This document shows positions 13,231 to 43,012 of a stretch of 46,956 bases of DNA, piece after piece (position 1 is the stretch's first letter; each line of letters starts with the position of its first letter). The stretch comes from Candidatus Binatia bacterium (lineage in GTDB: Bacteria > Vulcanimicrobiota > Vulcanimicrobiia > Vulcanimicrobiales > Vulcanimicrobiaceae), in contig DATKMJ010000062.1 of NCBI GenBank assembly GCA_035541935.1, forward strand, positions 1-46,956, written 5' to 3'. The position numbers were made by a program, and so were the translations under genes. The notes under the pieces were generated by a model. That model had not been told where the DNA came from, made no database searches, and worked only from the letters and a program-made list of their open reading frames with translations.

Positions 13231-13262
13231 TAATGCCGCCGGTCAACCGACCGGCGGCATTA
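13231..13262. terminator. bidirectional hairpin terminator
   Basis: Perfect 14-bp stem TAATGCCGCCGGTC / GACCGGCGGCATTA with a 4-nt AACC loop, between two convergent genes. Poly-T tracts are weak on both sides (CTATCTTC on plus, ATCATTT on minus), so it may be only partly rho-independent. Confidence 0.75.
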
Positions 13263-13284: not shown

Positions 13285-13881
13285 TCAGCTGCGATAATCC
13301 GGAGGCGAAGCGGGCTTTTCGATCTCCGGGGTTGGTCCGGGTCTCCACCCGCCATACGTCGGTCCCGGCGGCGGCGCGCTTCCGGCGGCGCTCGTCGGCG
13401 CTCCCGGCGCACCGCTGCTCGGCCCGAAACTCTGCCGGGCCGCGGGCGGTCCGAAGCTCGCTCCGCTCAGCACCGCGCCGATGATCTGCGCGATTCCGAC
13501 GAAGAGCGGGATCAGGCCGCCGAGCAACCACGGGCCGTAGACGTAGCGTCCGTCCCCGTGATACCCGATGAAGCCGAGGCCGATGAGGAGGGCAAAGCCG
13601 ATGCAGGCGACCTGGATGCCCCGCCGCAGCTGCTGCTGCGCGTAGAAGTCGTGCTCGAAGCCGTACTGATTCGGCTGGCCCTGCGGCATCGCGCCGGGCG
13701 CCCATCCATACTTCATCGCGCGCCGCATCTCGCGCCAGTTCGGCGGCGGGACGATCCCGCGCCGGAGCATCTCCATGCGTTCCTGGTGCGCGAAGACGCG
13801 CGAGACAATGAAAGCTGCGATCGGCGCTCCGAAGATCACGATGATCGCTACGAGGGGGATAATGTCGCTATAGTCCGTCAC
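13285..13881 (-). CDS. membrane protein, three helices and Pro-rich tail (DUF6249-like layout)
   Basis: 198 residues. One helix at the N-terminus (IIPLVAIIVIFGAPIAAFIV), a short basic amphipathic stretch containing ERMEMLRRGIVPPPNW, then two closely spaced helices (VACIGFALLIGLGFIGY, WLLGGLIPLFVGIAQIIGAVL) and about 55 residues rich in Pro, Gly and Ala. The 'ERMxMLRRG' segment after the first helix is typical of a widespread family of small membrane proteins that often sits beside ECF sigma factors and DUF4097 proteins. It overlaps the upstream DUF4097 gene by 14 bases. Function unknown. Confidence 0.7.
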   Translation of the reverse strand: MTDYSDIIPLVAIIVIFGAPIAAFIVSRVFAHQERMEMLRRGIVPPPNWREMRRAMKYGWAPGAMPQGQPNQYGFEHDFYAQQQLRRGIQVACIGFALLIGLGFIGYHGDGRYVYGPWLLGGLIPLFVGIAQIIGAVLSGASFGPPAARQSFGPSSGAPGAPTSAAGSAPPPGPTYGGWRPGPTPEIEKPASPPDYRS

Positions 13882-16007: not shown

Positions 16008-16697
16008 ATGGAGAAGCACGCGCAGGAGCGACGTCCCTATAGAGTCCTCGTCATCGAGGACGACGCGGCCATCAGCCGCGTTCTTCAGCTCGAGCTAGAG
16101 CACGAGCGTTACGAGGTCGACGTCGCGCGCGACGGCCTGTCCGGCCTAGAGAAAGCGCTCAAAGAACCCGATCTCGTCATCCTCGACTTGATGCTTCCGC
16201 GCATGGACGGCATCGAAGTCTGCAAACGTATCCGCGCGAAGAGCCGCGTGCCGATCATCATGCTCACCGCGCGCGATCGCGTCCCCGATCGCGTCGAGGG
16301 CCTCGACGTCGGCGCGGACGATTACGTCACGAAGCCTTTCTCTACCGAGGAGCTGCTGGCGCGGGTTCGCGCCCGCCTGCGCGAGCGCACGCCCGTCGGC
16401 AACGTCATCGAGTATCGCGACGTCGTGATGGACCGGGATCGTCACGAGGTTCACCGCGGCGGACAGCCGATCACGCTGACCGCCAAGGAGTACGCGCTCC
16501 TCGAGTATCTTCTGCTCCACCGCAACAAGGTGCACACCCGCGACGAGCTCTTCAACGGCGTCTGGGGGAGCGATTTCCTCGGCGACTCCAATCTCATTGA
16601 CGTCTACATCCGCTACCTGCGCGGCAAGATCGACGACGGATTCGAAGACAAGCTGATCACCACCGTACGAGGCGTCGGCTACACGATCAAGGATTGA
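16008..16697 (+). CDS. OmpR/PhoB-family response regulator
   Basis: 229 residues. Receiver domain with acidic pocket EDD (17-19), phosphoacceptor Asp60 in VILDLMLPRMDG, and Lys109 in TKPF; then a winged-helix domain (about 135-228) ending HTRDELFNGVW ... LRGKIDD ... TTVRGVGYTIKD. It activates or represses genes upon phosphorylation by the kinase encoded downstream. The gene sits in the same run as the ECF sigma pair, so the two signalling devices may be coexpressed. Confidence 0.95.
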   Translation: MEKHAQERRPYRVLVIEDDAAISRVLQLELEHERYEVDVARDGLSGLEKALKEPDLVILDLMLPRMDGIEVCKRIRAKSRVPIIMLTARDRVPDRVEGLDVGADDYVTKPFSTEELLARVRARLRERTPVGNVIEYRDVVMDRDRHEVHRGGQPITLTAKEYALLEYLLLHRNKVHTRDELFNGVWGSDFLGDSNLIDVYIRYLRGKIDDGFEDKLITTVRGVGYTIKD

Positions 16698-16826
16698 CGT
16701 GCGCCCCCCGCATGGGCGACTCGAAGTCGCTCGTCGCTCCGCATCCGTGCTAGCTTTGAAGCGGCCATCCGTGGCCGGCCCGAAAAAGTTGGAGCCTTCT
16801 CGTCGCCCATGCGCGGAGCGCACGTC
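16696..16826. repeat. long-range inverted repeat between response regulator and kinase
   Basis: Two 25-nt arms (16696-16720 and 16802-16826) are reverse complements at 23 of 25 positions, enclosing 81 bases. The first arm begins in the regulator's stop codon; the second ends 15 bases before the kinase ATG and just before its GGAGACGG site. The enclosed part contains a further perfect hairpin CGGCCA-tccg-TGGCCG (16762-16777). In RNA this would fold into one large stem. Confidence 0.75.
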
Positions 16827-16841
16827 GGCCCGGAGACGGCG

Positions 16842-18293
16842 ATGTCGCTGAAGTGGCGGATCGCGATCGGGTACTCGGTGCTGCTGATCGTGGCGATCTC
16901 GGCGATGAGCGGCATCATCGTCTGGCGCTTCCAACAGATTCTCATAGACCAGGCCGCGGCGAGCGCGAACGCGACGATGCGCGCGGTCGTCTCGTTCGCA
17001 CAGCAATCGGCATCGCCGTTCTCGCTCGAAGATCCCTCGCTGAGCACGCTGCAGTTTCTCTTCAACAGCAGCAACCTGGCGACGTGGAACTCGGCGAACA
17101 GCTACGTTCAAGTAGATTCCAGCGACGGCTACCCGCTGGCGAAGACCGCCAATCTCGGCTCGTTCGCGATCCCGCCCAACCCGAAGCTCTCGCCGCTCCA
17201 CGACGTCGCGTTCCGTCGCGAGACGATCGGCGGCCGGCCGTTTCTCGTCGAGGACCGCTTTCTCAAAGAAGGCCTGAACTCGGCCGTCATCCACGTTGCG
17301 GAGCCGCTCGACACGCTGCAGCGCACCTTCGTGCGCGCCCGCGAAGCGATCTTCATCGTGCTCGGCGCAACCGTGGGCGCGGTCGTGATCTTCTCGATCT
17401 GGCTCGCATCGCAGGTAACGACGCCGATCGACGAGCTCTCACGCGAGATGGGTGAGATCAGCTCCGATCGCCTCGCGCTCGCGGCCGGCTCGCTCGAAGC
17501 GGCGGAACCCGGGCTCGAACTGCGCCGGCGACGCGATGAGATCGGACGCCTCGCCACGAGCTTCAACGACCTCCTCGCGCGCCTCGCCGAGGCGTTCGCA
17601 CGCGAGCGTCAGTTCATCTCGGATGCCTCGCACGAGCTCAAGACGCCGCTGACGTCCATCAACGCGAACGCGCAGTTGCTGTTGCGCTGGGGCGATCGCG
17701 ATCAGACGATCCGCCGCGAGAGCCTCGAGACGATCGCGCGCGAGAGCGCCGATCTCGCCGGAATGGTCAACGGCATGCTCACGCTGGCCAAGGCGGACCG
17801 CGGCGACGAGATTCCCAAGGAGCCGCTCTCGCTGGCCCAAATCGCGAGCGAGGTGGCTCAGAACTCCGCGTCGCGCGCCGCCGAGAAACGAATTGACCTG
17901 CGCTTCACGCACGACGGAACGCCGATCGTCTATGGCGACGCGCACCTCCTCCGCCAACTCATCGGGAACCTCGTGGATAACGCGTTGAAGTTCAGCGAAG
18001 GCGGCCGCGTCGTCGTTCGGGTCGGCCAGGGCGGAGCGTTCGCTTGGATCGAGGTCGAGGACAGCGGCCCAGGCATCCCGCCCGAGGAGGCCGACCACGT
18101 CTTCGAGCGCTTCTACCGCACCGATAAGGCCCGCTCGCGGATCGTTCCCGGCACCGGACTCGGGCTGGCGATCGTCCGTTCCATCGCCCGCGTCCACGGC
18201 GGCGAGGCGACGGCCGGCCGCGCTCCGGGCGGCGGGGCGCTTTTGCGCGTCGTCTTCCCCCTGATAGCGCCTCCGTTCACCGGTCTCTCATGA
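16842..18293 (+). CDS. sensor histidine kinase
   Basis: 483 residues. TM1 (about 7-29), extracytoplasmic sensor of about 135 residues, TM2 (about 169-189), HAMP linker (190-245), dimerisation domain with phospho-His264 in FISDASHELKTPL, and an ATPase domain with N box (LIGNLVDNALKFSEGG), G1 (VEDSGPGIPPEEAD), F box and G2 (GTGLGLAIV). The start is put at ATG 16842, which has GGAGACGG upstream; an ATG 33 bases earlier lies in the inverted repeat. Cognate to the regulator upstream. The large intergenic inverted repeat may control its translation. Confidence 0.95.
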   Translation: MSLKWRIAIGYSVLLIVAISAMSGIIVWRFQQILIDQAAASANATMRAVVSFAQQSASPFSLEDPSLSTLQFLFNSSNLATWNSANSYVQVDSSDGYPLAKTANLGSFAIPPNPKLSPLHDVAFRRETIGGRPFLVEDRFLKEGLNSAVIHVAEPLDTLQRTFVRAREAIFIVLGATVGAVVIFSIWLASQVTTPIDELSREMGEISSDRLALAAGSLEAAEPGLELRRRRDEIGRLATSFNDLLARLAEAFARERQFISDASHELKTPLTSINANAQLLLRWGDRDQTIRRESLETIARESADLAGMVNGMLTLAKADRGDEIPKEPLSLAQIASEVAQNSASRAAEKRIDLRFTHDGTPIVYGDAHLLRQLIGNLVDNALKFSEGGRVVVRVGQGGAFAWIEVEDSGPGIPPEEADHVFERFYRTDKARSRIVPGTGLGLAIVRSIARVHGGEATAGRAPGGGALLRVVFPLIAPPFTGLS

Positions 18294-42936: not shown

Positions 42937-43012
42937 GGGGATGTAGCTCAGCTGGTAGAGCACTTGCTTCGCATGTAAGGGGTCGGGGGTTCGAGTCCCC
43001 CCATCTCCACCA
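42937..43012 (+). tRNA. tRNA-Ala (anticodon CGC)
   Basis: 76 nt including encoded CCA. Acceptor GGGGATG pairs with CATCTCC (one G-U), D arm GCTC-AGCTGGTAGA-GAGC, anticodon stem CTTGC/GTAAG with loop TTCGCAT (CGC at 34-36), T arm GGGGG-TTCGAGT-CCCCC. Reads codon GCG, common in this GC-rich genome. It is the integration target of the element to its right. Confidence 0.97.

Follow-up and report, generated by a model that had tools for sequence, protein, structure and literature searches.

The window, which here means the whole stretch of 46,956 nucleotides analysed, contains an OmpR-type response regulator gene followed by a sensor histidine kinase gene, and the spacer between the two genes holds a long inverted repeat (Table 1). 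Kinases of relatives begin with M-S-L-K-W; the kinase start was therefore set at 16842, and not at 16809 within the right arm, where the ORF as listed begins. With this start the spacer is 144 nt, in agreement with the earlier note on this DNA.

Analysis of the spacer confirmed the 25-nt inverted repeat that had been described for the regulator-kinase gap. Positions 16696-16720 pair with 16802-16826 at 23 of 25 bases, with mismatches at 16705 (C)/16817 (A) and 16708 (C)/16814 (C), and the best ungapped inverted-repeat score of 19 was unmatched by 3000 dinucleotide shuffles (maximum 14). A repeat search extended the arms to 16696-16726/16796-16826 (31 nt, 27/31 paired, 87%). The placement proposed for the arms, from the stop codon of the regulator to just before the kinase ribosome site, is borne out by the coordinates: the opening two bases of the left arm are the GA of the regulator TGA stop (16695-16697), and the right arm ends 15 nt upstream of the kinase ATG and also upstream of the GGAG at 16832-16835, which leaves the ribosome site outside the stem. 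The hairpin said to be nested inside the stem was also found (16762-16767/16772-16777, loop TCCG). RNA folding, which had been proposed as a check, showed that both strands of 16680-16845 fold better than shuffles, with -80.7 kcal/mol (z -3.4; 1 of 200 shuffles equally good) for the plus strand and -86.9 kcal/mol (z -4.7; 0 of 200) for the opposite strand. The sole other inverted repeat scoring 14 or more in the whole window (13231-13262, score 14) is short and adjoins the ORF at 13285-13881 from outside.

Table 1. Positions of the genes and of the parts of the inverted repeat in the window.
Feature	Positions	Strand	Remarks
OmpR-type response regulator	16008..16697	+	Response_reg and Trans_reg_C
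Left arm	16696..16720	+	25 nt, locus-specific; begins in the response regulator TGA stop
Inner arm extension TCGAAG	16721..16726	+	Common to subfamily copies L098, L099 and L095
Head 5' domain remnant CGCTCGTCGCTCCGCATCCGTG, with CGTC motif	16725..16751	+	Model R1, 25.3 bits, positions 1-26 of 46
Approximate internal-deletion junction	16749..16752	+	About 34 nt gone relative to complete L098 and L099; sequences compared by eye
Tip hairpin of second head domain, CGGCCA-TCCG-TGGCCG	16762..16777	+	CAGCCA/TGGCTG in other copies
Second head stem 3' strand CCGAAAAAG, partner gone, and conserved end TTGGAGCCTTCTC	16780..16801	+	
Right arm	16802..16826	+	25 nt, 23 positions complementary to left arm
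Sensor histidine kinase	16842..18293	+	HAMP, HisKA, HATPase_c; start from relatives

The regulator was present in 41 of 41 genomes searched, and the regulator-kinase gap was compared between the window genome and 29 relatives. Between the regulator stop and the L-K-W/L-R motif of the kinase there are 11-58 nt in 27 relatives, and in one more (L026) the kinase starts at once after the regulator (read by eye, the motif being unparsed). The genome with the best-matching regulator (G004) has a gap of 113 nt with a truncated element. The element is absent from this gap in 28 of the 29 relatives, whose spacers are far too short for the hairpin, and the operon therefore works without it. Comparison of the spacer in relatives, the second check proposed, thus found the stem not to be conserved at this locus.

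A decayed copy of a dispersed two-hairpin head inside the spacer

A BLAST search of the own genome with the spacer revealed that the inner sequence matches several places and that the arms do not; the matches of the inner sequence sit between other inverted repeats. Besides the partner arm, matches lying mainly within an arm were weak in the own genome (E 0.047 or worse), and these results led to the rejection of a mobile repeat made up of the arm. The earlier note would have abandoned a regulatory reading if the arm recurred through the genome as a mobile repeat with no conservation at this locus; conservation is indeed lacking and the interior recurs as a dispersed repeat, but no such recurrence was seen for the arms.

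A sequence-only model of 46 positions built from ten copies (R1) identified at least 18 sites in the own genome (E 0.1 or less). It matched at least 22 of 25 near genomes and at least 41 of 148 genomes of the phylum (E 0.001 or less). The positive phylum genomes represent at least 12 of 70 genera, and among the matches listed all belong to two families of one Eremiobacterota order. A tRNA at 42937-43009 was the sole Rfam match of the window at gathering score, the element gave none, and two sub-threshold matches were obtained when seven loci were searched. In a pattern scan of contigs, 7 of 80 loci among the matches listed were from Eremiobacterota and the rest from other, mostly GC-rich genomes; these scattered matches were taken as chance. 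A separate pattern search with ill-fitting spacing gave matches no better than a reversed control. Judged from its sequence, the interior of the spacer is the decayed remnant of a REP-like repeat that is dispersed in one Eremiobacterota order. Only the first 26 positions of R1 are matched by the window copy; by eye, the stretch that it has lost includes the 3' half of the first hairpin together with the second stem's 5' strand. Since the copy is reduced to one tip hairpin and its arms, a working head at this locus is unlikely.

These results bear on the suggestion that the stem is a switch. An attenuator or switch specific to this operon, acting on kinase expression, would explain why an intergenic stem is so long and stable, but it is very improbable: the stem is not conserved at the locus, its interior is dispersed, the ribosome site lies beyond it, and GGCCCGG follows the right arm with no U/T run of the kind an intrinsic terminator has. 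Because 28 of 29 relatives do without the hairpin, the interior is a dispersed repeat and no T run is present, the structure probably did not originate as a switch or attenuator of the operon. Repeat debris is the more probable reading, since the interior is a worn dispersed repeat and the site-specific arms apparently mirror neighbouring DNA. Lowered kinase expression and protection of the upstream mRNA, the other effects proposed for the stem, are possible; at present the stem would do no more than a passive hairpin would at the 3' end of the regulator mRNA.

A total of 84 copies were used for the analysis of the head and its surroundings, comprising the window copy and 83 R1 matches taken from a longer list with up to about 500 nt of flank on each side. 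The 83 are mainly the strongest and the own-genome matches, and 16 of the at least 18 own-genome copies are in the set. The complete head consists of two hairpins whose stems vary and whose loops are UCC-type, and CGTC precedes the first hairpin (H1). At least three head types, grouped by eye and motif, have the first domain CGCTCGTCGC-hairpin-GCTCCTGCT in common and differ in the second domain; type C heads resemble, by eye, two tandem units. Directly 5' of H1 the motif CGTCGC is invariant in the ten model sequences, and TCCTGCT or a close variant lies downstream. The H1 stems begin with GC and have 1-8 uninterrupted pairs; a long first stem does not occur in all copies. Covariation in H1 was assessed by swapping 3' halves among 52 distinct segments from 75 copies (the set minus eight unparsed copies and the window copy): the native mean was -6.16 kcal/mol against -3.89 (sd 0.22) for permuted stems, and 0 of 2000 permutations reached the native value.

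CsrA sites are GGA within hairpins. The tip loops read TCC(N) on the plus strand, hence GGA on the opposite strand, and the genome has a csrA homologue (PF02599, 83.7 bits, G000:C18:44791-44943, L063), so the heads might be imagined as decoys that bind CsrA. Several copies, however, have TCG or other loops, and in most copies the strand that carries GGA runs antisense to the upstream gene; a decoy role is extremely improbable.

Locus-specific arms and their origin

Analysis of the flanks revealed arms scoring 10 or more in 69 of the 84 copies, compared with 23 of 420 flank-shuffled controls. In these 69 copies the median arm length is 25 bp (range 10-48) and 17 arm pairs are perfect; 35 are 25 bp or longer, and four of these are perfect. 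Arms are missing from 15 copies, six of which are cut by a contig end, leaving 9 armless among the 78 uncut copies. More than 15 nt away from the head, the agreement between left arms taken from different loci is only 0.26-0.34, against a within-locus arm complementarity of 0.92-0.94, a value inflated because arms were selected for pairing. Four copies with nearly the same heads (L137, L138, L140 and L143) still have unlike arms beyond about 15 nt from the head. According to a script, an arm extends as far as a stop codon or coding sequence in 17 copies, one of which (L162) is probably a false gene call.

Several irregular arrangements were also observed. An intergenic gap in G003:C41 (L206) holds a perfect arm pair that meets at NN, the head being seemingly absent from the assembly. 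In G007:C55 (L159), two near-identical elements with identical 23-bp arms have the same orientation and are separated by about 320 nt, and element pairs of opposite orientation occur at one site, 170-350 nt apart, in G000:C69 (L095), G011:C121 (L114) and G014:C167 (L136). Intergenic gaps of these genomes commonly contain another short repeat, GTCATCCTGAGC...GTCGAAGGA (L355, L359, L360, L363; L209, L213, L217), which sometimes replaces an arm or nests inside an element (L111, L157).

Comparison of filled and empty sites revealed where arms come from at two loci other than the window. At the first, next to a gene which we take from its translated start to be queE-like, the right arm in G014 includes the first 16 nt of the gene, ATGCTTCAACTAGCTG. 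This gene start is exact in G016 and G009 and diverges increasingly in other relatives. Its inverted copy CAGCTAGTTGAAGCAT is present in G014 only, the G009 contig ending before the position, and is absent from 11 of 11 relatives with both flanks aligned (six by script, five by eye). In G014 the upstream gene has lost its own end to the inverted copy, which provides an in-frame stop codon (frame by eye). The empty site in G003 may be a secondary loss, because the more distant G009 has the G014 arm sequence. At the second locus (L129), the left arm in G014, G009 and G003 includes the upstream gene end CTCGTAA and the right arm its inverse, and both arms are missing from 11 of 11 other relatives aligned on both flanks (ten by script, L185 by eye). 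Both loci show the mark expected of a template-switch product, an inverted copy of neighbouring sequence that empty sites lack; as one flank was copied at the queE-like locus and the other at the second, either flank can be copied. A third locus (L127) has 48/48 arm pairs, and there a close relative, G016, has a short gap without the element and G003 a different arm pair flanking NN. In the window, the left arm may be the original one, as hinted at by its two stop-codon bases and by a loose likeness of the bases after them to the spacers of G011 and G002.

The arms could instead be old target hairpins, the head having inserted into the loop of a pre-existing palindrome such as a terminator. 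Elements do lie just 3' of genes, and the available text of PMC3733652 describes REPs within palindromes in A. variabilis, T. roseum and H. neapolitanus. Relatives, however, have no such palindrome at the two loci, one arm takes in the first bases of a coding gene, and stems with 36-48 perfect pairs do not look like terminators, which makes this origin quite improbable.

Orthologous sites among the fetched copies form 13 groups, and heads of both orientations were found by eye in six of them. Heads recur at orthologous sites with unrelated arms. The arms facing queE have sequence in common in L137 and L156, whose heads point in opposite directions; in L156 a contig end truncates the far side. 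In G003, a head of a different type and in reversed orientation lies between homologous arms at the L129 locus. Template switching has been reported to homogenise arms and invert spacers (PMC8604942) and proposed to make and repair hairpins, creating perfect ones (PMC8794818), as far as the available parts of these papers state; by analogy, the homogenised arms and inverted heads seen here may be its products.

Codon-usage gene calling set up for this analysis placed the stop codon of a flanking gene within 60 nt in 66 of the 84 copies. By gene context, 29 copies are tandem sense, 8 tandem antisense, 23 convergent and 3 divergent; the remaining 21 are unresolved on one or both sides. Sense copies account for 29 of 37 in tandem pairs (binomial p 0.0008, with loci non-independent), and this bias suggests some RNA-level role. 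Selection might keep a hairpin at the mRNA end, as a stabiliser or partial terminator in the 3'-UTR, while its sequence turns over. The nearness to stop codons, the few divergent copies, the sense excess and the return of heads to orthologous sites despite unrelated arms would all suit such an element, and REPs placed similarly are thought to be transcribed, according to the available text of PMC3733652. Against this, 28 of 29 relatives lack the element at the window locus, the window head is broken, and the placement may only mirror tolerance of insertion. A functional 3'-UTR element is unlikely, though less so than insertion into a pre-existing palindrome.

Overall, our analysis suggests that the window spacer probably contains a decayed REP-like element, and that template switching, with the adjoining DNA of the host as template, made or extended its stems. 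A complete element is a conserved two-hairpin head enclosed by a long stem unique to each locus. DNA polymerase would switch templates at the head hairpin, or during insertion, and copy flanking host DNA in inverted form; the same switching would keep the arms paired and flip the head. The arms of the window copy would have arisen in the same way as those at the two other loci. Several observations speak against this explanation. Armless copies are rare (9/78), which may favour one-step insertion over later switching; G003 and G014 have similar arms with different heads at one locus, for which simple inversion of the spacer is insufficient; the empty G003 site at the queE-like locus may be secondary; selection on RNA can also yield covariation and perfect arms; and the sense excess in tandem pairs points to some role of the RNA. 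A more unusual possibility is a mobile hairpin that inserts by its own snap-back chemistry, its head priming the inverted copying of 10-48 nt of host DNA at insertion without a Y1 transposase. Each copy would then build its own locus-specific stem; we give this reading a low probability.

Comparison with known systems

The nearest described kind is the CGTC-tagged REP (repetitive extragenic palindrome), as characterised in the available text of Di Nocera et al. 2013 (PMC3733652). As described there, both have a short stem whose complementary strands vary and which is directly preceded on its 5' side by an unpaired CGTC, both are intergenic, mostly tandem or convergent and near 3' ends, with units that in the element look paired by eye, and both occur without a dedicated transposase. 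Unlike those REPs, whose 8-9 bp stems have A/T pairs at the first two positions and are followed by a short unpaired tail, mostly CCA, the H1 stem begins with GC and no such tail was seen after it. The element also differs in its UCC-type loops of 3-5 nt, its low copy number (tens), its units, which look tandem by eye whereas the REP dimers are mostly head-to-head, and its enclosure by locus-specific arms of 10-48 bp. The REPs found inside palindromes in that text lie in consensus palindromes, whereas the arms of the element differ at each locus. The tag and the placement fit and the AT-starting stem and CCA tail do not, and the element was therefore not filed as a CGTC-tagged REP.

With the REPIN/RAYT system, as far as the available text of PMC3116915 describes it, the element shares short, non-coding, dispersed hairpins, but no GTAG tag was noted in it and its arms are unconserved. 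A Y1 transposase as mover was rejected, since none of 18 genus genomes gave a PF01797 match; the control search was positive in 5 of 14. Among the papers listed by literature searches, no title or abstract describes REPs flanked by locus-specific inverted host duplications.

If the preferred explanation is correct, a mutational process tied to a dispersed repeat can yield perfect, locus-specific, covarying stems without selection at the locus, and caution is needed in deducing operon regulation from long intergenic stems and covariation. The filled and empty sites would also provide natural pairs with and without the element for the study of template switching and REP movement in bacteria with no detected Y1 transposase. 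The element resembles template-switch (quasipalindrome) mutations, as presented in the available parts of PMC8604942 and PMC8794818, in that nearby DNA is copied in inverted form, arms are homogenised and the spacer is inverted; what sets it apart from them is the link, across many loci, to a conserved and dispersed head.
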